Counted from the first letter of the stretch, positions 3,003 through 26,562 are shown. The stretch is DNA of 36,317 nucleotides from Oscillospiraceae bacterium (GCA_031288675.1 JAITQY010000064.1:1-36317), one strand, 5' to 3'. Numbers and translations: made by a program. The notes: a model not told the origin generated them from the letters alone.

Positions 3003-4109
3003 TCATGCGAGCGCTTCAAATACCTTAAATTCCGCGAAAGAGCCATCGTCAATGGAGCTTCGTATACGGCTCATCAGATTATTAAAGAACGTTAGGTTGT
3101 GTATAACGGCGAAGCGGAGCGCAAGCATTTCCTCCGCCTTAAACAAGTGGCGGATGTATGCGCGGCTGTAGTTCCGGCACACAGGACAACCGCAATTGCC
3201 GTCAACCGGGGAAAAATCCCGAGCGTACTTTTCGTTCTTGATATTCAAAGTTCCGCAGGAGGTGTAGAATTTGCCGTGCCGCCCGTTTCGGGCTGGCAGC
3301 ACGCAGTCGAACATATCTACTCCGCGCTTGACGGCTTCCACGATGTTCTCCGGCGTGCCTACTCCCATTAGGTAACGCGGCTTGCCGACCGGCATTTCTT
3401 CCTCGACCGCTTCGATGGTATCATACATCTCCTGAGCGGATTCGCCGACCGCAAGTCCGCCTATAGCGTGGCCGGGCAAATCAAGCTCCGCGATTTCGCG
3501 CATCATACCGCGTCGGAGCGCGGCATTGGCGCCGCCCTGACTGATACCGAAGAGTACCGTGCGTTCCGAACCGCCGTCAAGTCTGAGCAGTTCGTCGTTA
3601 CAGCGTCGCAGCCAACGGACAGTACGTTCGCAGGAGGCTTTAATGTATGCGTCGGGAGCGGGCAGACCGATGCACTCGTCAAACGCCATAGCAATGTCTG
3701 TTCCAAGCGCGTACTGTATACGGATACTGTCCTCCGGCGACATAAAAATCTTGCGACCGTCAATGTGACTGCTGAACGCGACGCCGTCCTCCGTGATTTT
3801 GCGCAGGTTCGCGAGCGAGAAGATTTGAAAGCCTCCGCTGTCGGTAAGTATAGGACGGTTCCAGCGCATAAACCCGCGCAGACCGCCCGCATCGCGCACT
3901 AAATCTTCACCGGGACGCAGGTGCAGGTGATAGGTGTTACACAGAGCGATTTGGCAGCCGGCGGTTTCAAGGTCGGCTGCAGACAGCCCTCCTTTAATTG
4001 CCGCCTGTGTCGCGACGTTCATAAAGGCGGGGGTTTGAACGGTACCGGAAGGCAGGGAAATCTCGCCTAAACGGGCTTTTTGAAAAATTTTTTTGATTTT
4101 GAATGTCAT
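3003..4109 (-). CDS. tgt: Queuine tRNA-ribosyltransferase
   Basis: MTFKIKKIFQKARLGEISLPSGTVQTPAFMNVATQAAIKG..., LTDSGGFQIFSL, zinc-site CGTLN...CGCPVC. Start moved to 4109 (SD GGAG). Confidence 0.93.
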   Translation of the reverse strand: MTFKIKKIFQKARLGEISLPSGTVQTPAFMNVATQAAIKGGLSAADLETAGCQIALCNTYHLHLRPGEDLVRDAGGLRGFMRWNRPILTDSGGFQIFSLANLRKITEDGVAFSSHIDGRKIFMSPEDSIRIQYALGTDIAMAFDECIGLPAPDAYIKASCERTVRWLRRCNDELLRLDGGSERTVLFGISQGGANAALRRGMMREIAELDLPGHAIGGLAVGESAQEMYDTIEAVEEEMPVGKPRYLMGVGTPENIVEAVKRGVDMFDCVLPARNGRHGKFYTSCGTLNIKNEKYARDFSPVDGNCGCPVCRNYSRAYIRHLFKAEEMLALRFAVIHNLTFFNNLMSRIRSSIDDGSFAEFKVFEALA

Positions 4110-4187
4110 TTTGCTCTCCAAACGCGTATATTGGTATGAGGCAAACGCCTCGGGAAATCTATAATAGAAAGCGAGCAATATTTAATC

Positions 4188-4751
4188 ATGAGTTGTTGCT
4201 ATAAAACACCGGCGCCGTTTAATGCGTCCGCGTCCGCAGTCAGCAGTCCCATGCTCCATTATATGCCCGTTACAGGCACGCAAGGTCCGGCAGGAGCACG
4301 CGGCGCAACGGGAGCGACCGGCTTACAAGGTCCGCGCGGAATAACGGGAGCAACTGGCATGACCGGTGCTACCGGAATGACTGGGGCGACAGGCGCGACA
4401 GGATTAACGGCGATCACGTCATTTGGAACCGGATATAATGCCACAGTCAGGACAGTGGGACCGATAACAACCGGCAACTCGGTAGCTATTCCGGTAGACA
4501 CTCTTACCGGCAACAGCGCGACCGTAACGGCGAGTTCACCGACGATTACACTTGCCGAACCGGGAGTGTACCAAGTCACATTCTCCGTAAATCCGACCTC
4601 CAGCGCGGATACAAACGCTTCGTTCACGCTGACTTCTAACGGGACTCTGTCTCCCGGAGCGGTACAGACCACTGCGCTGACAGCGAACACCCCGGCAAAC
4701 GTCTCCAAAACAGTAAACGTAACGGTAACTAATCCAAACACCCAAATCTGA
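4188..4751 (+). CDS. Collagen-like (GXX-repeat) surface/exosporium-type protein; in-frame TGA, coding-like sequence continues to TAA at 4845-4847
   Basis: [43 protein letters not shown] collagen repeat followed by a BclA-like C-terminal beta domain. Confidence 0.8.
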
Positions 4752-5210: not shown

Positions 5211-5342
5211 TATTGACATATATTTAGATCAAACTCTAAATAATAAATAATATTCAAGGAATATTTGCGGTCACAGTTCCTGTGCTGTTAATTTACTCAT
5301 ACAGGGAATATAGGAAAGAAACGCCGCGCTGACATGTTCATT

Positions 5343-5374
5343 ATAACCGGGACGGTAATTACCGTCCCGGTTAT
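5343..5374. terminator. Perfect 32-nt palindrome, probable terminator; T-rich tail on the + strand
   Basis: ATAACCGGGACGGTAATTACCGTCCCGGTTAT followed by GGTTTGTTTTAATT; 3' of the Mo-hydroxylase gene. Confidence 0.7.
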
Positions 5375-5386
5375 GGTTTGTTTTAA

Positions 5387-7741
5387 TTATATTATATCTA
5401 ACGCCGCAAGTACTCTGTCCGGAGTTGCCGGGGGATCCACCCATTTGCCGATAGCGTTATGGATGGCACAGATAATCAGGTGAGTATTCGCTAAACTATG
5501 GCTTATTCCGTTAGCCCCGTATGCGGCATTGCCCGCGCGGGTTTCAAGGAAGTGACGTGTGATAACGGGAACGTCAAGCATAGTCGGCTTTTTATAATCA
5601 ATCATATTGTTGTTGAGCATAACGCCGGTAGCGGGATCGTATACAAAGTCCTCTAAAAGCTGACAACCCTGAGAGAAGTACATAACCTGATCAATTTGGC
5701 TCTCCAGCGAGGTCGGGCGCATGATTTTTCCGGGGTCGGCAACCGCGCCGAGTTTAAGAAGCTCCACAACGCCGGTTTCCGTATCAACGGCTGCTTCGCA
5801 GAACGCGACGTTCATTGTATCCAGCTTCCGTCCCATATCGGTAGCCCACAAAGCGAGTGGAGGCTTGCCCTTATAGGTAGCGAACAAGTTCTCCCTAACT
5901 GCCGCAGCAAGCGGAAGCCGTTTGCCCGGATCAGCTTTGACGATTACGCATCCGTCCGCCATATCAAGGTCGGCGGCGGTAAGCCCTTTGAACGGATTAG
6001 GCTCCGGCGGCAGACCGAAGAAGAACATAGGCGGCGGCGCGTCCGCTTCCTTTATCGCTGACTCAAGTATTTTCTGCTTTAAGATGTTTGCGCACTCTTT
6101 TGTCACCCATGCAGAGGCTGTAGTGCCGTCGCTTCCTCCTCCGACCGGAGTAAACGTCTCGCGATAATCAAAGTCGATTTTCACATCGTCATATGATAAT
6201 CCAAGCTCCTCCGCAACGACCATAGCGTTGCACTCCACCGCGAATACGCCGAACAGAGGACCCTGTGTCGGCAGGTGAACCTCCCCGTTGCGAAGTTCTA
6301 ATTTGGAGCTGTAATCGGTGAAGCTGTGGCGCGGACACATCTGATAACGGAAGCTCACACCGTGTTTACGACCGTCAGGAAGCGTTTTTGTTCCGGCGCT
6401 GTGCCATTCCCAGCCGATTACTTCTTTAAGCGCCTTGACGCACGCCTCAAAGCTGGGAACCGCGTCACCGTCATCCTGACTGTTCGGACCGTGCAGATTA
6501 AGCCGCGCTACGTCGATCGGGTCTTTGCCGAGTTCCTCCGCGATTAGATAAATCGCCATAGTGCCGCTGTCCCAGTTAAACGGGCAGTGCTGACCGGAAA
6601 CATACATAAATCCGCGGTTGCTGTCCACTATCTCCATCTGCTGACGGATATTCTTGCACTTGAAAGTGAAGTAGGGACCGTAGCTTTGATCGCCGGAGGT
6701 TCCGAAGCTACTGCTTCCCCAGCCTCCGCCGTCCGCGATAGAATAATCGTCAACCGCGGTGATTAGTCCCTCGTTCGTGAAACCGACTTTCATCTTCATA
6801 TAGCGTTCCATCATTATCATATCGAAGGTTTCTTCACGCGTATCCACGCAACGTACAGGGCGTCCGGTGCGCTTGGAAAGAAGCGGAGTTATCTCCTGCG
6901 ACTTGCGAAGCCCCCAGTCGCAGTATTTGCCGCCCATAAACAAGCCCTCTTGCACGACTTTCTCAGACGGCAGGCGGTACATCTGAGCGATAGCGCTGCG
7001 TTCCCGCACCGCGCCCTCTATATGCAGACTTTGACCGCCCTCTCCGTAATACGGGTCGTCGAACCAATACGCGAAACTGCCGCTCGGATTCGGCATATGC
7101 GACGCAAACGACGGCATATAAAGCTCGTACTCCAATACCCTGTCCGCTTGCTTAAAGCCCTCGTCAATATCGCCCTGAATAGCTGTAGAGTAATTCACAT
7201 TGCCTTTTTTTGGCGGAGGAGGAGCGGGATTGCCCATTCCGCCGCTGGGAGCGTTCGCTTGCGGCGGCAATATTACCGTTGCGTCCTCCTTGCGGGATTC
7301 AAGCAAACTGGTATAGAAAGGAAGAACTTCCCATTCTATATCAAGGGCTTTAAGGGCTTCGTCGCAAATATCCAAGTCCTCAGCGACTACGATAACGCCG
7401 ACTTCCTGCTTTTCGTGGTCGGCATAGTTATCAAGCCATGCCCGCGCCGCACCGAAGCTTTCTCCGAAAGACTTCAGCGCGATAATATCGGGGTCATCCC
7501 ATTTTACAATATCGACTACCCCGGGAATCGCGGCGGCTTTAGCGGCGTCAACACTCTTTATACGCGCGTTAGCATAAGGACTGCGAAGGAATTTAGCTTG
7601 CAGCGTACCCGGCTGAAAATAGTCAATGCCGAACTTTGCCACTCCGCTTGCAAGCTGCGGAGAAAGTTTTCCGGGAACGTTTGGTTTCCCTACAACACGG
7701 AAAGTTTCGCGGTTTCCGTTTGCTCCGATAATGTCTGCCAT
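5387..7741 (-). CDS. Xanthine dehydrogenase/aldehyde oxidase-family molybdopterin-binding subunit (divergent)
   Basis: 784 aa; VVGKPN..., RSPYANARIKSVD, C-terminal TPDRVLAAL, substrate-channel segments typical of Mo-hydroxylase large subunits. SD AAGGAGG upstream. Confidence 0.8.
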   Translation of the reverse strand: MADIIGANGNRETFRVVGKPNVPGKLSPQLASGVAKFGIDYFQPGTLQAKFLRSPYANARIKSVDAAKAAAIPGVVDIVKWDDPDIIALKSFGESFGAARAWLDNYADHEKQEVGVIVVAEDLDICDEALKALDIEWEVLPFYTSLLESRKEDATVILPPQANAPSGGMGNPAPPPPKKGNVNYSTAIQGDIDEGFKQADRVLEYELYMPSFASHMPNPSGSFAYWFDDPYYGEGGQSLHIEGAVRERSAIAQMYRLPSEKVVQEGLFMGGKYCDWGLRKSQEITPLLSKRTGRPVRCVDTREETFDMIMMERYMKMKVGFTNEGLITAVDDYSIADGGGWGSSSFGTSGDQSYGPYFTFKCKNIRQQMEIVDSNRGFMYVSGQHCPFNWDSGTMAIYLIAEELGKDPIDVARLNLHGPNSQDDGDAVPSFEACVKALKEVIGWEWHSAGTKTLPDGRKHGVSFRYQMCPRHSFTDYSSKLELRNGEVHLPTQGPLFGVFAVECNAMVVAEELGLSYDDVKIDFDYRETFTPVGGGSDGTTASAWVTKECANILKQKILESAIKEADAPPPMFFFGLPPEPNPFKGLTAADLDMADGCVIVKADPGKRLPLAAAVRENLFATYKGKPPLALWATDMGRKLDTMNVAFCEAAVDTETGVVELLKLGAVADPGKIMRPTSLESQIDQVMYFSQGCQLLEDFVYDPATGVMLNNNMIDYKKPTMLDVPVITRHFLETRAGNAAYGANGISHSLANTHLIICAIHNAIGKWVDPPATPDRVLAALDII

Positions 7742-7789
7742 ATATGAAATCCTCCTTTTTTACCCGTTAAATATTTATCTAAAAGTTTA

Positions 7790-8200
7790 TCAATGTTCGT
7801 TATGCTCGTTGTGATCGTGTTCGCAAAGTTCTATCTCGGTTTCCTCTTGCAAAGCTGCGGCGGCAACCGATGCTATTTCGCGCTGAACGGTCTCGTCCGG
7901 CGCGTTATATACGATAAAAGTGATTCCGAGCGTAAACTCGAATTGACCGCTAACCGTAGCAGCTCCGCCCGTAGCTGATAGAGTGACCGCTCCGCCGGAC
8001 GGCTCTAAAAAAGCTTTCAAATGCCCGATTATAGCTCCTGCGGACTCTAACCGTTTTGAGGCGGCGGCAAGTTCTGCTTCTAACCGCGAAACCGCCTTGT
8101 CCGGTTCTGTTGTCCTGAACGGCGCGGTAACTGAAACGATTCGCGCTCCGTCATGCTCTTTACTGTGAGTGTGTAAACGTATCATAAAAGCGTACTCCAA
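7790..8200 (-). CDS. Hypothetical protein with His-rich N-terminus and C-terminal tail, candidate metal-binding partner
   Basis: Ends ELCEHDHNEHNEH, begins MIRLHTHSKEHDG from the likely start at 8185; overlaps/abuts the CobW-type GTPase stop. Confidence 0.65.
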   Translation of the reverse strand: MEYAFMIRLHTHSKEHDGARIVSVTAPFRTTEPDKAVSRLEAELAAASKRLESAGAIIGHLKAFLEPSGGAVTLSATGGAATVSGQFEFTLGITFIVYNAPDETVQREIASVAAAALQEETEIELCEHDHNEHNEH

Positions 8201-8781
8201 ACCTCATCCGCTATACTGTCTTTTGCGCTGACTGTATAAATCTTCGCACCGGAATTGATAAACGCTATTTCCTCCGTTAATTCGTCTGCAACCGCTGAAT
8301 CTACCGTATCAATTTTATTAAGCAGGATAACGTCTGCGGCGTCAAGCTGAGCCGTTATAAGCTCGCTCATCGCGTTTTGCAGACGCTTCCAGCGTTCCGC
8401 GTCCGCAACGGCAAGTATCTTTACCTGCAAGCTGAAAAGTTCGGTAATTTTTTCGCGTATCGCTCTCGGATACGCTACTCCCGTAGCTTCGATTATAAGC
8501 CATTCCGGACTGATTTCGCGGGAGATACGGTCAATGTCCTGAAGCAAATCTCCGCCGGATGTACAGCAGGCGCAACCAGAAAAAAGCTCCCTCACCTGCA
8601 ATCCTCTGTTACGCAAAATCTTATCGTCAATGCCTATATCGCCGATTTCATTCTCGATTATCATTACTCGGACAGCGTCTGAATCAGCGCTTTGCCCGTC
8701 TTTGAGCAACGCCTCCGCAAGCCTGAGCAAAACCGTAGTCTTGCCCGATCCGAGAAATCCTCCAAGCAAAATAATTTTCAT
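8182..8781 (-). CDS. COG0523 (CobW/HypB-like) GTP-binding metallochaperone-type protein
   Basis: MKIILLGGFLGSGKTTVLLRLAEAL (Walker A), SGCACCTSGGDLL (CXCC motif of COG0523), IIEATGVAYP, LLNKID. Start moved to the internal Met at 8781. Confidence 0.87.
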   Translation of the reverse strand: MKIILLGGFLGSGKTTVLLRLAEALLKDGQSADSDAVRVMIIENEIGDIGIDDKILRNRGLQVRELFSGCACCTSGGDLLQDIDRISREISPEWLIIEATGVAYPRAIREKITELFSLQVKILAVADAERWKRLQNAMSELITAQLDAADVILLNKIDTVDSAVADELTEEIAFINSGAKIYTVSAKDSIADEVWSTLL

Positions 8782-8800
8782 TACACATATCCTCGAAGGT

Positions 8801-8829
8801 ATTATAATATTTTTAAGCCGGTTTGTCAA
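8801..8829 (-). promoter_or_regulatory. Sigma-A promoter of the cobW-like/His-tail/Mo-hydroxylase operon
   Basis: TTGACA-N17-TATAAT on the minus strand upstream of 8781. Confidence 0.75.
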
Positions 8830-11740: not shown

Positions 11741-13402
11741 TCAGGAATTTTCGTTTTGCCTGACGTCTTTTTCGCGGATCTCCGCACGGCGAATTTTACC
11801 GTTGATGGTCTTAGGAAGCTGGTCAACGAACTCTATCACGCGCGGATACTTGTAAGGAGCGGTCTCGTTCTTAACGTAGGTTTGAAGTTCTTTGATAAGG
11901 TCGCCGCTCGGCGCATAACCGTTAGCAAGCACGACAGTCGCTTTAACCAAATTGCCCCGAACCGGGTCCGGAACGCCAGTAACCGCGCACTCCAAAACCG
12001 ACGGATGCTGAACAAGCACGCTTTCGATTTCAAACGGTCCGATACGGTAACCGGAGCTTTTTATTACGTCGTCGTTGCGCCCGACATAGAAATAGTAACC
12101 GTCTTCGTCACGCCAAACCGTATCGCCGGTATGGTACCAGCCGTTGTGCATTGCGGCGGCGGTTTTATCCGGGTCGAGATAATATTCCATCATAAGCCCT
12201 TCGGGATGTTTCGGCTCGTAACGGATACAGATTTCGCCGGTCTCCCCGGGTTTGCAGCTTTCTCCGTCATTGTTGAGCAAATCAACCTCATACTGCGGCG
12301 AGGGCTTGCCCAAAGAACCGGGAACTGGCACGGTGCCTTTAAGGTTGCACATCGTTAGCGTCGTTTCGGTCTGTCCGAATCCTTCCATAATATTCAGCCC
12401 CGTGCGTTTTTTCCATTCGAGGAAAACATCCGGATTAAGCGCCTCTCCGGCAGTTGTGCAGTAGTGAAGACTGCTGAAATCATACGGACTGAAATCCTCT
12501 TGCAGGAAGAAACGGTACATAGTCGGCGGACAACAGAGGGTAGTAACGCGGTATTTCTCCGCTAAACCGAGTATCTCCGCCGGAACGAAATTATCAAAGT
12601 CATAAGTAAATACGCACCCTTCCATAAGCCACTGTCCGTACAGCTTGCCCCAGACGGCTTTGCCCCAGCCGGTATCGGCAATCGTGAAGTGCAGACCGTC
12701 CGGCTCCACGCAGTGCCAGTGCTTGGCAGTAAGCAGATGTCCCAGCGAGTACAGATGGTCGTGCATAACCATTTTCGGATTGCCGGAGGTTCCGCTGGAG
12801 AAGTATATCAGCATAGGTTCTTTGACGTTTGTATCTACACGCACCCAATTGTCGGGGGCAAGCGGCATATCCGTATCAAAGCTCTCCCAGCCGCCGCGCT
12901 GACCGTTGACGATGATTTTGGTCATAAGGCTCGGGCAGTCTGCGGAAACAGCGTCAAACGCGTCCGGCGCGCCGTTAAGCGCGGTACAGATAACCGCCTT
13001 GGCATTTGCGGCTTTGATACGGTACTCCGCATCGTGAGGTTTAAGCATAAACGTCACGGGAATCATAACCGCGCCCATCTTGTGCAGCGCTACGGTTATC
13101 GGCCAAAACTGCCAGTGGCGTTTGAGCGCGACGATTACCATATCCCCTTTGGTGATACCCAGCGAAGCAAGATAATTTGCCGTCTGATCTGACAGTTTCT
13201 TCATATCGCCGAACGAGAACGTATGTTCCTCGCCGGCAGGATTCAGCCAAACCATTGCGCGGCGGTTCGGGTCATTTATCCCTATATCGTCCACGACGTC
13301 ATAGCCGAAGTTATAGTTGTCCGGATATTTGAGTTTATAGCTTTTAAGGACGCCGCCGGCATCGTAAAGCTCGTCAGCGTAGCGTACGTTTATGTTTCTC
13401 AT
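11741..13402 (-). CDS. AMP-forming acyl-CoA synthetase (acetyl/medium-chain type)
   Basis: LIYFSSGTSGNPKMVMHDH, EGFGQTETT, YHTGDTVWRDEDGYYFYVGRNDDVIKSSGYRIGPFEIE, PKTINGKIRR. Confidence 0.92.
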   Translation of the reverse strand: MRNINVRYADELYDAGGVLKSYKLKYPDNYNFGYDVVDDIGINDPNRRAMVWLNPAGEEHTFSFGDMKKLSDQTANYLASLGITKGDMVIVALKRHWQFWPITVALHKMGAVMIPVTFMLKPHDAEYRIKAANAKAVICTALNGAPDAFDAVSADCPSLMTKIIVNGQRGGWESFDTDMPLAPDNWVRVDTNVKEPMLIYFSSGTSGNPKMVMHDHLYSLGHLLTAKHWHCVEPDGLHFTIADTGWGKAVWGKLYGQWLMEGCVFTYDFDNFVPAEILGLAEKYRVTTLCCPPTMYRFFLQEDFSPYDFSSLHYCTTAGEALNPDVFLEWKKRTGLNIMEGFGQTETTLTMCNLKGTVPVPGSLGKPSPQYEVDLLNNDGESCKPGETGEICIRYEPKHPEGLMMEYYLDPDKTAAAMHNGWYHTGDTVWRDEDGYYFYVGRNDDVIKSSGYRIGPFEIESVLVQHPSVLECAVTGVPDPVRGNLVKATVVLANGYAPSGDLIKELQTYVKNETAPYKYPRVIEFVDQLPKTINGKIRRAEIREKDVRQNENS

Positions 13403-21405: not shown

Positions 21406-22131
21406 CTAATTATTGACGTACAACTGGTGATACGGGTTTTTGCTGTCCGGAGTAAGCAGAATATAATCATCGGCAAGGAGCTTTGCCGCGTCGCCTCCGA
21501 AGTAGCCCGCAAACTCCTCCAACAGCGGTTTAAGTATTGCCTTATCCTCTGCCGCAGCGGTTTTTACCGAGACCTGAGGCGGTATCTCTTCCGGAACCGC
21601 AGTGCCCCGTATAAATATCTTGCCGCCGTGCATTCCCGTTCCGGTGAAACGCCCGATTCGCTCGTCATTCAGGCACAGCGCGACAAGGATTCCTCCTGCC
21701 ATATACTCACCAAGAAAATTACCGGAGCCCCCTCCGAAAACTATGGTCGGGAACATATCCTTGTACTGCTTCATATGGATTCCGGCACGGTATCCCACGC
21801 CCCCGCGAATGTACATCTTACCGCCGCGCATTCCGTAACCCGTTGCGTCGCCGGAGCTTCCGTAGATTATCATCTCGCCGCCGCTCATCGTATCACCGGT
21901 TGCGTCCTGCGCGTTGCCGTTGACGACTATTTTATCACCGCCGAGATAGCATCCAAGCGCGTTGCCGGGCGTACCGTTTATCGTCAAGTTAAGCTTTTCG
22001 CGACCTGCGCCGATATAACGCTGGCCCTCACAATTGTCGATTGTTATATCGCCGTTGCCGCCGTCAAGCTCGGCGCGAATAAGCTCGTTCAGGGTCTGAA
22101 AGTGCATTCCTTTTGCATCAATCGTTTTCAT
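21406..22131 (-). CDS. Glutamate synthase alpha-subunit C-terminal (GXGXG) domain protein
   Basis: GNALGCYLGGDKIVVNGNAQDATGDTMSGGEMIIYGSSGDATGYGMRGGKMYIRGGVGYRAGIHMKQY is the GXGXG beta-helix. Confidence 0.9.
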   Translation of the reverse strand: MKTIDAKGMHFQTLNELIRAELDGGNGDITIDNCEGQRYIGAGREKLNLTINGTPGNALGCYLGGDKIVVNGNAQDATGDTMSGGEMIIYGSSGDATGYGMRGGKMYIRGGVGYRAGIHMKQYKDMFPTIVFGGGSGNFLGEYMAGGILVALCLNDERIGRFTGTGMHGGKIFIRGTAVPEEIPPQVSVKTAAAEDKAILKPLLEEFAGYFGGDAAKLLADDYILLTPDSKNPYHQLYVNN

Positions 22132-23408
22132 TATCTCTCCACCCCCGCAAGTTTTTTCTTACGCGCGTCCGCGGCGAATCCTTTAAGGCTCGCACGGTCT
22201 TTGATTGACTCAAAGTCCACCGTATCAAGCGGAGTTTTATCTTTTATCAGATTAGTGTAAATTCCCGCGCGGTCAAGCACACTGTGGTCGTGAATATCAT
22301 TACCGCCAATAAGGATAAATCCTTTCAACAACCCTGCGTCCCGGCAAATAAGCCTATAGCTGCCGTCATCGCCGAACACTTCGTGCTTTTCCCCGATATA
22401 GCTTCCCGCGCTGAGTATATGTTTGCCCCAAAACCCGATCGCGTTCATCGGCATCGCGCTGTCATACGGTTTATCCTCTAACCCGGCGGCGTTTCGTCCT
22501 GCTGCATATCCCTGAGCGTACGCGTTCGGCAGAAGCGCAAGTATCTTTGCCTGTTCCGAAGTAATATCAAAGCTTTCCGTACAGTCGCCCGCCGCATAAA
22601 CATCCTTTAACGATGTACGGCAGAACTGATCCGTTACAATTCCCTTATTGACGTCTCCTCCGGCGTCTTTAATAAGAGCAACGTTCGGACGCACGCCTAC
22701 CGCCAGCACAAGTACGTCAAACTCAACTACTGCGCCGGATTTCATCACCGCTTTGTTACCGTCGAACTTATCCGCAGTGTCGCCAAGCATAAATTTAACG
22801 CCGTTCTGCTCTATCCAATTCTGCATTATCTTCGCCAGTTCGTCCTCAAGGATACTTGGAAGAATACGCGGCGCAAGGTCGCAGACCGTGATGTTCTTAG
22901 TCAGCTTGCTTATTCCCTCCGCGCATTTTAATCCGATAAGCCCCGCGCCGATGATGAACACGCGCGTATCAGCCTTAACGTGTTCCTGCAGGAACTTAGC
23001 GTCGTCAAGCTTCATAAACGGAGTTTTCAGAGGAACCGTTTCTAAGCCATTCATAGGCGGCACAAACGGCACGGAACCGGTCGAAACAAGCAGTTTATCA
23101 TACTGAAGGCTGCCGGTATAGTCGTCTTTGCTCCAGCTAACTGTTTTCGCCGCCGCGTCGATTTGCGTAACGGTACAACCCAGCATTGCCGTAACGCCGT
23201 TTGCGGAATAGAACTCGTCCGGGCGGAATTTAATACGTTCCTCGTCCGTCTTGCCGAACAGCAGATAACTTATAAGCGGACGCCCGTAGGTATGATACGG
23301 CTCGTCAGAGATAATAACAATCTCCCAATCCTTATCAACAGCGCGCAAACCTTCCACCGCGCCCACAGCGGCGGCGGAGTTTCCGATAATAACGAATTTC
23401 TTAGCCAT
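22131..23408 (-). CDS. FAD/NAD(P)-dependent oxidoreductase of the split glutamate synthase operon
   Basis: FVIIGNSAAAVGAVEGLRAVD, RVFIIGAGLIGLKCAEGI, DVYAAGDCTE. Confidence 0.9.
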   Translation of the reverse strand: MAKKFVIIGNSAAAVGAVEGLRAVDKDWEIVIISDEPYHTYGRPLISYLLFGKTDEERIKFRPDEFYSANGVTAMLGCTVTQIDAAAKTVSWSKDDYTGSLQYDKLLVSTGSVPFVPPMNGLETVPLKTPFMKLDDAKFLQEHVKADTRVFIIGAGLIGLKCAEGISKLTKNITVCDLAPRILPSILEDELAKIMQNWIEQNGVKFMLGDTADKFDGNKAVMKSGAVVEFDVLVLAVGVRPNVALIKDAGGDVNKGIVTDQFCRTSLKDVYAAGDCTESFDITSEQAKILALLPNAYAQGYAAGRNAAGLEDKPYDSAMPMNAIGFWGKHILSAGSYIGEKHEVFGDDGSYRLICRDAGLLKGFILIGGNDIHDHSVLDRAGIYTNLIKDKTPLDTVDFESIKDRASLKGFAADARKKKLAGVER

Positions 23409-23866
23409 TACAGCGTCCCCCTTTCTTCGTAAACTATCGCGCGGTTCGGGCAGTGTTCCGCACAGGCGGGCGCGCCGACCTTATTCCGCAGGCAAAGTTC
23501 GCACTTCTGTACGACCTTACCGTCTCCGTCCGGCATTACGCATCCATAAGGACAAGTCAGTACGCAAGTAAAGCACCCCACGCACTTGTCCGGATTGTGT
23601 GTAACTACACCGTCCTCAACCGTAAGCGCTCCGGCAATACAACTCTTTACGCACATCGGGTCGTAACAATGACGGCATTGCACCGCAAAGTTGATTTTAC
23701 CGCCGTCCGCGCCGTCCTCTACGCGGATACGGGGATGTATCTTCTTTCCGCGCAGATTCCTGACCATATCCTGCGCCGTAACCCCGCCCATATTGGCGTT
23801 AGCGCAATGATACTCGCAAAGATGACATCCGAGACACCATTCTTCGTTAACAAATACTCTCCTCAT
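23408..23866 (-). CDS. 4Fe-4S dicluster ferredoxin
   Basis: CLGCHLCEYHC, CRHCYDPMCVKSC, CVGCFTCVLTCPYG. Confidence 0.9.
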   Translation of the reverse strand: MRRVFVNEEWCLGCHLCEYHCANANMGGVTAQDMVRNLRGKKIHPRIRVEDGADGGKINFAVQCRHCYDPMCVKSCIAGALTVEDGVVTHNPDKCVGCFTCVLTCPYGCVMPDGDGKVVQKCELCLRNKVGAPACAEHCPNRAIVYEERGTL

Positions 23867-25383
23867 ATGTTTTCACCCGCGTGCTTGATTCCTAACAGCT
23901 CAAGCTCTTTCTCATTTAGTCCGACCCCGCGCAGCATCAGGTGATTGCCGCGCAATGCCTCAATGGAGTTGATTCCCATTCCGCCCATCATTTCCATTAT
24001 TTCATGCTTCCACGCGCTGACGAGGTTAACAAGCCGCTTATAGCCCCAATCGGGGTTAAGCCGTTTGACCAAATCCGGCTCCTGCGTCGCGATTCCCCAG
24101 TTGCATTTATTCAAATGACAGCTGCGGCACAGATGGCAGCCTAACGCAAGCAGCGAAGCCGTTCCTATATATACTGCGTCCGCACCGAGCGCGATTGCCT
24201 TTACTACATCGCTGCTGCTGTGGATACTGCCTCCGATTACGACGCTTACGTTGTCGCGGATTCCCTCTTCGCGCAGACGCGCGTCTACCGCCGCAAGCGC
24301 TACCTCAATGGGGATCCCCACATTATCGCGAATCCGGCTCGGCGCCGCGCCTGTTCCGCCCTTAAATCCGTCTATCGCGATAATATCCGCGCCTGAACGC
24401 GCGATTCCGCTCGCTATGGCTGCTACGTTATGCACGGCGCTGATTTTAACAATTACAGGCTTAGTATACGCCGTCGCCTCTTTAAGGCTGTAAACAAGCT
24501 GGCGCAAGTCCTCTATGCTGTAAATATCATGGTGCGGAGCCGGGCTTATCGCGTCGCTTCCCTCCGGTATCATACGCGTACGCGACACGTCCGGACCGAC
24601 CTTTCTCCCGGGCAGATGTCCGCCGATTCCCGGTTTTGCGCCCTGACCCATCTTGATTTCGATTGCGGCGCCCGCCATCAAATAATCGCCGTGTACTCCG
24701 AACCGTCCGCTGGCAACCTGAACGATAGTATTCGGACCGTACTTATAGAAATCCTCGTGCAGTCCGCCCTCGCCTGTATTATAACATGTACCCAGCTCCG
24801 TAGCCGCGCGCGCAAGACTTTCGTGCGCGTTATAGCTTATCGAGCCATAGCTCATCGCGCTGAACATAACCGGTACGTCAAGTTCTATCTGCGGCGATTT
24901 GAACTTCGTAATGATTTTTCCGTTAGCGTCACGCTCCGGCTTCTGATTCTTCTTACCCAAGAACGTGCGCGTCTCCATCGGCTCGCGAAGCGGGTCAATA
25001 GACGGGTTGGTAACCTGTGAAGCATTGATAAGCATATGATCCCAGTATGTCGGGTAATCAAGCGGAGTACCCATAGCGCCTAACATCACTCCGCCGGAGT
25101 TTGCCTGCAAATAAAGCTCACGTATTTTTGTCTCGTTCCAGTTATTATTCTCGCGGAAACGGTTTTCACAGCGCCGGATTTTCAGCGCGTGCGTCGGACA
25201 CAAACTGACGCACCTCTGACAGTTGACACAGTTTTCGTCACAGGCGAGCATTTTGTCAATGTCCGCGTCGTAGCTGTGGACTTTATTCGCGCACTGACGC
25301 TCGCATACCTGACAGCGTATGCACTTGTCATTGTCGCGAACGACCTCGTGTTCCGGACTTAAATAGATTTTTCCTTGTTCCAT
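23863..25383 (-). CDS. Glutamate synthase FMN-binding (central) domain protein with N-terminal ferredoxin domain
   Basis: CIRCQVCERQC, CVNCQRCVSLCP; GQGAKPGIGGHLPGRKV, IIAIDGFKGGTGAAPSRIRDNVGIP. Confidence 0.92.
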   Translation of the reverse strand: MEQGKIYLSPEHEVVRDNDKCIRCQVCERQCANKVHSYDADIDKMLACDENCVNCQRCVSLCPTHALKIRRCENRFRENNNWNETKIRELYLQANSGGVMLGAMGTPLDYPTYWDHMLINASQVTNPSIDPLREPMETRTFLGKKNQKPERDANGKIITKFKSPQIELDVPVMFSAMSYGSISYNAHESLARAATELGTCYNTGEGGLHEDFYKYGPNTIVQVASGRFGVHGDYLMAGAAIEIKMGQGAKPGIGGHLPGRKVGPDVSRTRMIPEGSDAISPAPHHDIYSIEDLRQLVYSLKEATAYTKPVIVKISAVHNVAAIASGIARSGADIIAIDGFKGGTGAAPSRIRDNVGIPIEVALAAVDARLREEGIRDNVSVVIGGSIHSSSDVVKAIALGADAVYIGTASLLALGCHLCRSCHLNKCNWGIATQEPDLVKRLNPDWGYKRLVNLVSAWKHEIMEMMGGMGINSIEALRGNHLMLRGVGLNEKELELLGIKHAGENI

Positions 25384-25446
25384 TATGTTATCCCTCTTAG
25401 GTGGTATGTTTTGAGAAGCCGGTTTACGCCGAACTCCGCATAAGGA

Positions 25447-26562
25447 CTACACCTTAGAACTCCTTTCTTCTAAGCGAACTATAACGGCTTCGCCAGCGTC
25501 CGGCGCCCATACACGGTCAAGTTCCGGCTGTATCAGCCGTATCGCGCTCTCTTCGCTCGCGCCGTAGAATGTGCCGCCGTGTTCCGCAACTACCATTGAC
25601 CGCAGCTTCAAACGGTCGCCAAGTACAAGCATTCCTCCGGTGAAACCTAATATAACGCTGAACGGACCGTTGATCAGCAGCGCGTGATACCGTTTCCGCA
25701 GGTATGTGTAATACTCTTTTTTATCATCCGGCATAAGGTTGATAGTAGACCAGAACGGCGCGGACACCACATCACAGGCTTCCTCAAGCGTAAGCCCTTC
25801 TTTGCGCGTCAGATAATCGAATATGTACGTAATGACTTCCGTATCCGTCATCAGCGAACACTTATATCCGAACATCTCCACGTTACGGCGGTTAGCGTCA
25901 TAGCTGGAAATCTCACCGTTATGCACGATGGAGTAATCCAACAGCGAGAACGGATGCGCTCCGCCCCACCACCCCGGCGTGTTCGTAGGATACCGTCCGT
26001 GAGCCGTCCATGCGTAAGCCTCATAGTCGTCAAGCATATAGAACCGCCCTACGTCTTCAGGAAAAGCGTTCGCCTTGAATACGCCCATATTCTTGCCGCT
26101 GCTGAAAACCGCCGCTTTCTTGTCGAACTTCGTGTTGATAGAGAACACGCACTGCGCCGTGTACTCGCGCTCGTCAAGTTCGCTGCTGTCTAATTTAGCT
26201 TTTAGCGGAAGGATGAAGTAACGCCAGATTTTAGGCGCGTTAGTGATTTCCGGCATCTTACGCGTTTTGATTTCGCCCTGATTGGCAATTTCAAAATGTT
26301 CCTTTATGAAGTTCTCTGCGTCTTTTTGAAAGTTAGCGTCAAGATAGAATACGTGCAGGGCGTAATAGTCCTTGTACTCCGGGTAGATGCCATAGCCCGC
26401 AAAACCTCCGCCCAACCCGTTGCTGCGGTCGTGCATAAGCTCAATGGAACGAATTATCCGATCGCCGTTCTCGCGCGTTCCGTCTTTGTGAAATATTCCG
26501 GAAATTGCGCAGCCGGACGGGATGCGAACTTCGCCCTCCAATGGAATGTGTTGCGAAGTCAT
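25447..26562 (-). CDS. Glutamate synthase class II glutamine amidotransferase domain protein
   Basis: CAISGIFHKDG N-terminal region, AHGRYPTNTPGWWGGAHPFSLLDYSIVHNGEISSYDANRR. Confidence 0.9.
   Translation of the reverse strand: MTSQHIPLEGEVRIPSGCAISGIFHKDGTRENGDRIIRSIELMHDRSNGLGGGFAGYGIYPEYKDYYALHVFYLDANFQKDAENFIKEHFEIANQGEIKTRKMPEITNAPKIWRYFILPLKAKLDSSELDEREYTAQCVFSINTKFDKKAAVFSSGKNMGVFKANAFPEDVGRFYMLDDYEAYAWTAHGRYPTNTPGWWGGAHPFSLLDYSIVHNGEISSYDANRRNVEMFGYKCSLMTDTEVITYIFDYLTRKEGLTLEEACDVVSAPFWSTINLMPDDKKEYYTYLRKRYHALLINGPFSVILGFTGGMLVLGDRLKLRSMVVAEHGGTFYGASEESAIRLIQPELDRVWAPDAGEAVIVRLEERSSKV

Follow-up and report, generated by a model that had tools for sequence, protein, structure and literature searches.

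Three co-oriented genes in a 36,317-nucleotide stretch of Oscillospiraceae DNA (hereafter the window) appear, with a probability of roughly one half, to represent two independent units under one promoter: a split metallochaperone module and an active-site-divergent enzyme that shares partners encoded elsewhere. The first unit would be a split G3E metallochaperone whose metal is probably Ni, Co, or Zn, handled on behalf of the metalloenzymes of the cell. The second would belong to a clade of the xanthine oxidase family that is multi-copy, uncharacterised, and divergent in its active site, and whose fold is like that of 4-hydroxybenzoyl-CoA reductase (HCR). It would most likely be an oxidoreductase that depends on Moco, and probably a reductase, whose substrates may be plant-derived or aromatic, and it would use 2Fe-2S and FAD subunits encoded with its paralogs on C35 and C141 of the same genome.

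Organization of the locus

The features considered here are as follows, in window coordinates.

8801 to 8829, minus strand: sigma-70-type promoter, TTGACA-17-TATAAT, a 12/12 match with a 17-base spacer
8182 to 8781, minus strand: gene for a CobW-like GTPase, a short COG0523 G3E protein (PF02492, GCACC motif)
7790 to 8185, minus strand: gene for the His-tailed partner protein, 131 aa, without Pfam or PDB match
5387 to 7741, minus strand: gene for the xanthine-oxidase-family-like large subunit, 784 aa (Ald_Xan_dh_C, MoCoBD_1, MoCoBD_2)
5340 to 5377, strand not assigned: 17-pair hairpin 3′ of the large-subunit gene, a possible terminator
3003 to 4178, minus strand: tgt, which within the genus lies downstream of the CobW pair in conserved synteny
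11741 to 13402, minus strand: acyl-CoA synthetase (AMP-binding), which within the genus lies upstream of the pair in conserved synteny and in the window is outside the operon

The original prediction of three minus-strand genes behind a consensus promoter is borne out, the promoter being a perfect match, and the coordinates have been refined. The GTPase gene begins with an ATG preceded by a GAGG ribosome-binding site, and its stop codon is overlapped by 4 bases by the start of the small-protein gene. In a sister species (G003/L023) the gene order of the trio is kept, and TTGACA-17-TATAGT (11/12) occupies the equivalent position. Because the 36-kb window contains four perfect promoter sites of this type, compared with 0.01 expected, the promoter at 8801-8829 is typical of the genome and not special. 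The T-run of the hairpin lies on the plus strand. In line with the original prediction, the main ORFs of the window yielded no gene for a 2Fe-2S or FAD partner, for XdhC/MobA, or for Moco.

Elsewhere in the window, a split glutamate synthase set (21406-26562, minus strand; GXGXG, pyridine nucleotide reductase, 4Fe-4S, synthase core, and class-II amidotransferase components) adjoins an ANTAR regulator, and a gene for a collagen-like protein with a BclA-like, exosporium-like C-terminal domain (4188-4751, plus strand) adjoins tgt.

A xanthine oxidase clade with a divergent active site

The three Pfam domains of the large subunit score above their cut-offs, and the top Foldseek hit of its AF2 model is HCR alpha (1rm6, TM 0.76), with TM values of 0.75-0.77 to HCR, quinoline oxidoreductase (QOR), CODH, and PaoC; domains and fold are thus those of the xanthine oxidase family. 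Against TIGR03194, which describes 4-hydroxybenzoyl-CoA reductase, it scores 149 bits and falls short of the cut-off of 995.

An active-site glutamate is the mechanistic hallmark of the xanthine oxidase family. When the large subunit was mapped by profile alignment to HCR, QOR, 6-hydroxypseudooxynicotine dehydrogenase (Kdh), and CoxL, His748 aligned with a glutamate present in all four, the established catalytic residue of the family. A motif census found histidine at this position in 93/93 clade sequences, among which Y273-C274-D275-W276, G383-Q384, W390-D391, G535-G536, D538-G539, and H754 are likewise invariant. The Moco-pocket motifs GGGFG, RGxG, and GQG are absent from these 93 sequences, and largely invariant replacements (GGKYCDWG, SGQHCP, and mostly G[IV][YF]) are found in their stead; in the AF2 model, the loops with these motifs rank among the parts of lowest confidence. 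Among XO-type controls from the same taxonomic family, the glutamate is kept in all six that were readable (of 11 control loci, the other five not being counted), and most retain GGGFG or GQG. Comparison with the sister species yields a dN/dS of 0.033 for the large subunit, with synonymous sites near saturation, a sign that purifying selection on it has been strong. In the literature we found nothing direct on the trio or on a Glu-to-His Mo hydroxylase.

Relatives were collected in a single genome scan with a two-peptide pattern, in which 286 stretches matched and 248 were confirmed. The 80 that were fetched derive from Oscillospiraceae/Clostridiales, Peptococcaceae, Acidobacteriota, and deltaproteobacterial MAGs. 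Clade members occur in Sporobacter termitidis DSM 10068 (L081, L100), in a Papillibacter MAG, and in termite, rumen, and digester MAGs (habitats as given in record titles), often as several paralogs per genome. The notion that the large subunit is unique to this locus was rejected, given these 248 relatives and two more paralogs in the same genome, and so was a viral or mobile origin, no relative having been confirmed in viral contigs. Genes near the enzyme encode SDR proteins, URO-D methyltransferases, OYE-type proteins, and glycyl-radical enzymes. The examples of 4-HBCR, the urolithin C dehydroxylase Ucdh, and a C-S-cleaving enzyme establish that the xanthine oxidase family performs reductive chemistry in anaerobes (PMC12771579); reductive chemistry by the clade would fit its organisms and gene neighbours. 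In digester-type MAGs (L067, L071, L121), the enzyme gene has DUF4213/DUF364 genes, annotated as 'heavy-metal chelation', next to it or close by.

The GTPase and the His-tailed protein as a two-gene module

The GTPase has both the domain and the motif expected of COG0523 proteins (PF02492 at 131 bits, 5e-38; GCACC). It ends at 199 aa and has no CobW_C domain, its PDB relative is YjiA (1nij), and its dN/dS relative to the sister species is 0.08. Scored against NF041053, a model of a CobW-related selenoprotein, it reaches 73 bits, below the cut-off of 180.

The small protein begins with LHTHSKEH, ends with CEHDHNEHNEH, and contains a conserved core, I-I-G-H-x-K. Profile and fold searches returned no Pfam hit and no convincing PDB match. 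Its AF2 model (pLDDT 87) is arranged as beta-beta-alpha-beta-beta-alpha-beta, and its best Foldseek matches are alpha/beta proteins at low TM. The possibility that it is a split-off CobW_C domain finds no support in Pfam, the PDB profile search, or Foldseek. In several homologs the His-rich stretches are very long and include repeats such as HDEHCECGCHDHDHEHHHHH; repetitive His/Cys tracts of this kind are seen in L135 (1156-1797), L140 (1492-2367), and L141 (1456-2019), and their position differs between genomes, being N-terminal in some and C-terminal in others.

Of 151 genomes from the window's family, 15 contain a homolog of the small protein, and in 15/15 loci a short CobW gene directly adjoins. 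This pair lies mostly away from any Mo-type subunit, and the short CobW GTPase and the His-tailed protein are a free-standing two-gene module, separate from the enzyme. A neighbourhood analysis detected the contiguous trio in the window, in one sister species, and nowhere else, contrary to the predicted co-conservation of the three genes. Two congeneric genomes share the order acyl-CoA ligase, CobW, small protein, dipeptidase, tgt; in the window the ligase is likewise upstream and tgt downstream, with the Mo-type gene between the small-protein gene and tgt. The operon is real, and the trio neighbourhood is a recent local, lineage-specific arrangement. Other settings of the pair vary. In one genome (G090) its neighbours encode Mrp/MinD-type ATPases, a NifX-like protein, and a heavy-metal protein with DUF364; here the DUF364 gene (L151, 8687-9430) lies beside the pair, independently of the cases near the enzyme.

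Association of the pair with the enzyme and with acsB

Co-occurrence was assessed by profile search of the same 151 genomes, which were treated as independent, so that relatedness inflates the significance of the values given here. The small protein was detected in 25 and the enzyme clade in 16 genomes: 12 contain both, 13 only the small protein, 4 only the enzyme, and 122 neither (p=3.5e-8). Among carriers of the closest small-protein subtype, the enzyme is present in 10/12. The acsB gene accompanies the small protein in 19/25 genomes (p=3e-7) and the enzyme in 15/16, and when only the 46 genomes matching acsB strongly are considered, the small protein occurs in 12/15 enzyme genomes versus 7/31 others (p=3e-4). 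This co-occurrence counts against the reading of two independent units, since it fits a functional link better than chance adjacency.

One tentative but serious alternative is that the pair serves CODH/ACS as a chaperone for nickel (or in a corrinoid-related role), in which case its correlation with the enzyme would reflect a shared acetogenic, methoxyaromatic-degrading lifestyle. The acsB counts point in this direction, and in G132 the pair directly follows cooS-cooC-acsB-URO-D (L150, 2316-10359), while in G001 it is within about 10 kb of acsD/acsC-type genes. However, 27 acsB-positive genomes have no detected small protein, so the pair is not a general CODH/ACS factor, and a universal role of this kind was rejected; moreover, the association of pair and enzyme persists within acsB-positive genomes.

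We consider it unlikely that the GTPase and the His-tailed protein form an insertion system for a metal or cofactor that is specific to this enzyme family, acting in cis at this locus and in trans in other cases. Consistent with such a role are the shared transcription unit and conserved promoter in two sister species, the co-occurrence both across the 151 genomes and within the acsB-positive subset, the high frequency of the enzyme among closest-subtype carriers, and the DUF364 genes beside both the enzyme operon (L067, L071) and the pair (G090). On the other hand, the small protein was detected in 0/9 Acidobacteriota and deltaproteobacterial enzyme-bearing genomes and went undetected in several enzyme-bearing Oscillospirales genomes, whereas 13 family genomes have it without the enzyme; physical linkage is limited to one lineage, and the statistics include relatedness. 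The original prediction of a dedicated metal- or cofactor-insertion system for an atypical enzyme therefore stands in its parts, a metallochaperone-like pair and an atypical enzyme, but the dedication of one to the other is mostly unsupported, the pair being a separate module. A weaker form survives, in which pair and enzyme may be linked functionally or ecologically at the genome level within the window's family.

Electron-transfer partners

The original prediction also proposed an enzyme independent of the usual electron-transfer partners. None is encoded in cis, but at the level of gene content the genome speaks against this proposal: in the window's genome (G000), paralogs on C35 and C141 each have adjacent family-type 2Fe-2S and FAD subunit genes. 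On C141, a GltD-like NADPH flavoprotein is fused to the FAD subunit. The paralog FAD subunit has a Cys-rich insertion that may correspond to the extra 4Fe-4S insertion of the HCR FAD subunit, but its best alignment was to the medium subunits of aldehyde oxidases, in which an insertion of this type also occurs. FAD subunits with a GltD-like/Fer4_20 insertion are the common form in the clade; in one of 781 aa (L022, 2889-5234), a GltD-like NADPH oxidoreductase and Fer4_20 are inserted between the halves. In many 2Fe-2S subunits of the clade, the usual two-cluster domain is preceded by an N-terminal extension resembling a C2H2 zinc finger (CPxC...HYxxEHP), and the second cluster has a motif of the CICGTYPRH type. 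Extended forms are found in L021 (5016-5687), L031 (11195-11842), L032 (10965-11621), L033 (1982-2644), L034 (873-1613), and L028 (10304-10969).

With partner genes called by tblastn, and with a member called solo when each flank extends for 1.5 kb or more and shows no partner, 47 of the 93 members have a partner nearby, 29 are solo, and 17 are undecidable. The two states are intermingled on the tree, which requires at least 13 changes between them, and tandem large subunits lie beside one partner set in four loci (L065, L066, L069, L074). A high-scoring family-type 2Fe-2S subunit was found in 25/28 family-bearing genomes tested, the exceptions being G015, G197, and G179; G015 and G197 carry solo clade members, which weighs against the main reading. 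Because of the interspersion and the near-general presence of the 2Fe-2S subunit in these genomes, the partner data favour a model in which catalytic subunits would share an electron-transfer module in trans.

A solo large subunit might instead act without an electron-transfer partner in a redox-neutral reaction such as transhydroxylation or isomerisation, an explanation in keeping with the 29 solo members, with subclades that have no partnered member (for example, a rumen clade), and with G015 and G197. We nevertheless find it quite improbable, given two family-type partner sets in the window's own genome and the mixing of solo and partnered members among close relatives.

Cofactor

The absence of Moco genes from the window does not extend to its genome, where moaA, moaC, and moeA are present; a genome devoid of Moco genes was thus rejected. 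MoaC was detected in 22/31 family-bearing genomes and undetected in 9/31. Those MoaC-negative genomes that were checked for MoCoBD_1 also carry canonical-type Mo subunits, and for this reason MoaC absence is uninformative as proof of Moco independence. One 96% complete genome (G138) has only family-type XO subunits and yet possesses moaC, which mildly favours the use of Moco by the clade. Moco use is not secure, because the canonical pocket motifs and the catalytic glutamate are missing. XO-family Mo-type subunits without detectable MoaC were noted in G015, G140, G090, G132, G120, and G007; G015 is also without MoaA and MoeA, and the MoaC-negative G140 is its congener.

It is very unlikely that the clade has abandoned Moco and that the rebuilt pocket binds another metal centre through invariant Cys/His residues (candidates among C274, H417, H447, H460, H472, H748, and H754). 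The replacement of the glutamate and pocket motifs by largely invariant alternatives in 93 sequences and the missing MoaC of some family-bearing genomes would agree with such a change, but most of these genomes have MoaC, G138 keeps it, and the MoaC-negative cases are confounded as described. Least probable of all is a rebuilt XO-fold active site in which histidine and the invariant Cys/His/Asp motifs hold a different or additional metal loaded by the co-occurring split COG0523/His-tailed pair.

The Glu-to-His clade is the part of the locus most worth following. It is widespread, and its 93 examined members uniformly have the histidine; together with strong purifying selection and the existence of 2Fe-2S/FAD partners, this points to a different chemistry, plausibly a reductive one by which anaerobes of termites, rumen, and digesters act on aromatic compounds from plants. 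The module of a one-domain COG0523 protein and a His-tailed protein constitutes a second uncharacterised family.

Comparison with known systems

The window GTPase shares the P-loop, GCxCC, and NKxD motifs and PF02492 with COG0523 G3E GTPases such as YjiA, CobW, ZigA, and Nha3; unlike these, it has no CobW_C domain and is paired with a separate His-tailed protein. The clients of COG0523 proteins are an acknowledged knowledge gap (PMC9164220). The NF041053 selenoprotein is also a one-domain GTPase, of about 195 aa, but where it has Sec, the window motif has Cys.

For the large subunit, the best PDB match by both sequence profile and fold is HcrA (4-hydroxybenzoyl-CoA reductase alpha, 1rm6), at about 21% identity. 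In contrast to HcrA, the large subunit has histidine in place of the catalytic glutamate, replaced pocket motifs, and a solo position in the window. Its paralog operons resemble the HCR system in having 2Fe-2S and FAD subunits, and the paralog FAD subunit of the clade has HCR/PaoB-like extra cysteines. Ucdh, a reductive enzyme of an anaerobic clostridial gut bacterium whose closest characterised relative is 4-HBCR (32.7% identical), is encoded by three subunit genes together, with XdhC co-induced (PMC12771579). By its description it belongs, like the window enzyme, to the xanthine oxidase family, but its subunit genes stand together, whereas the window large subunit is solo.
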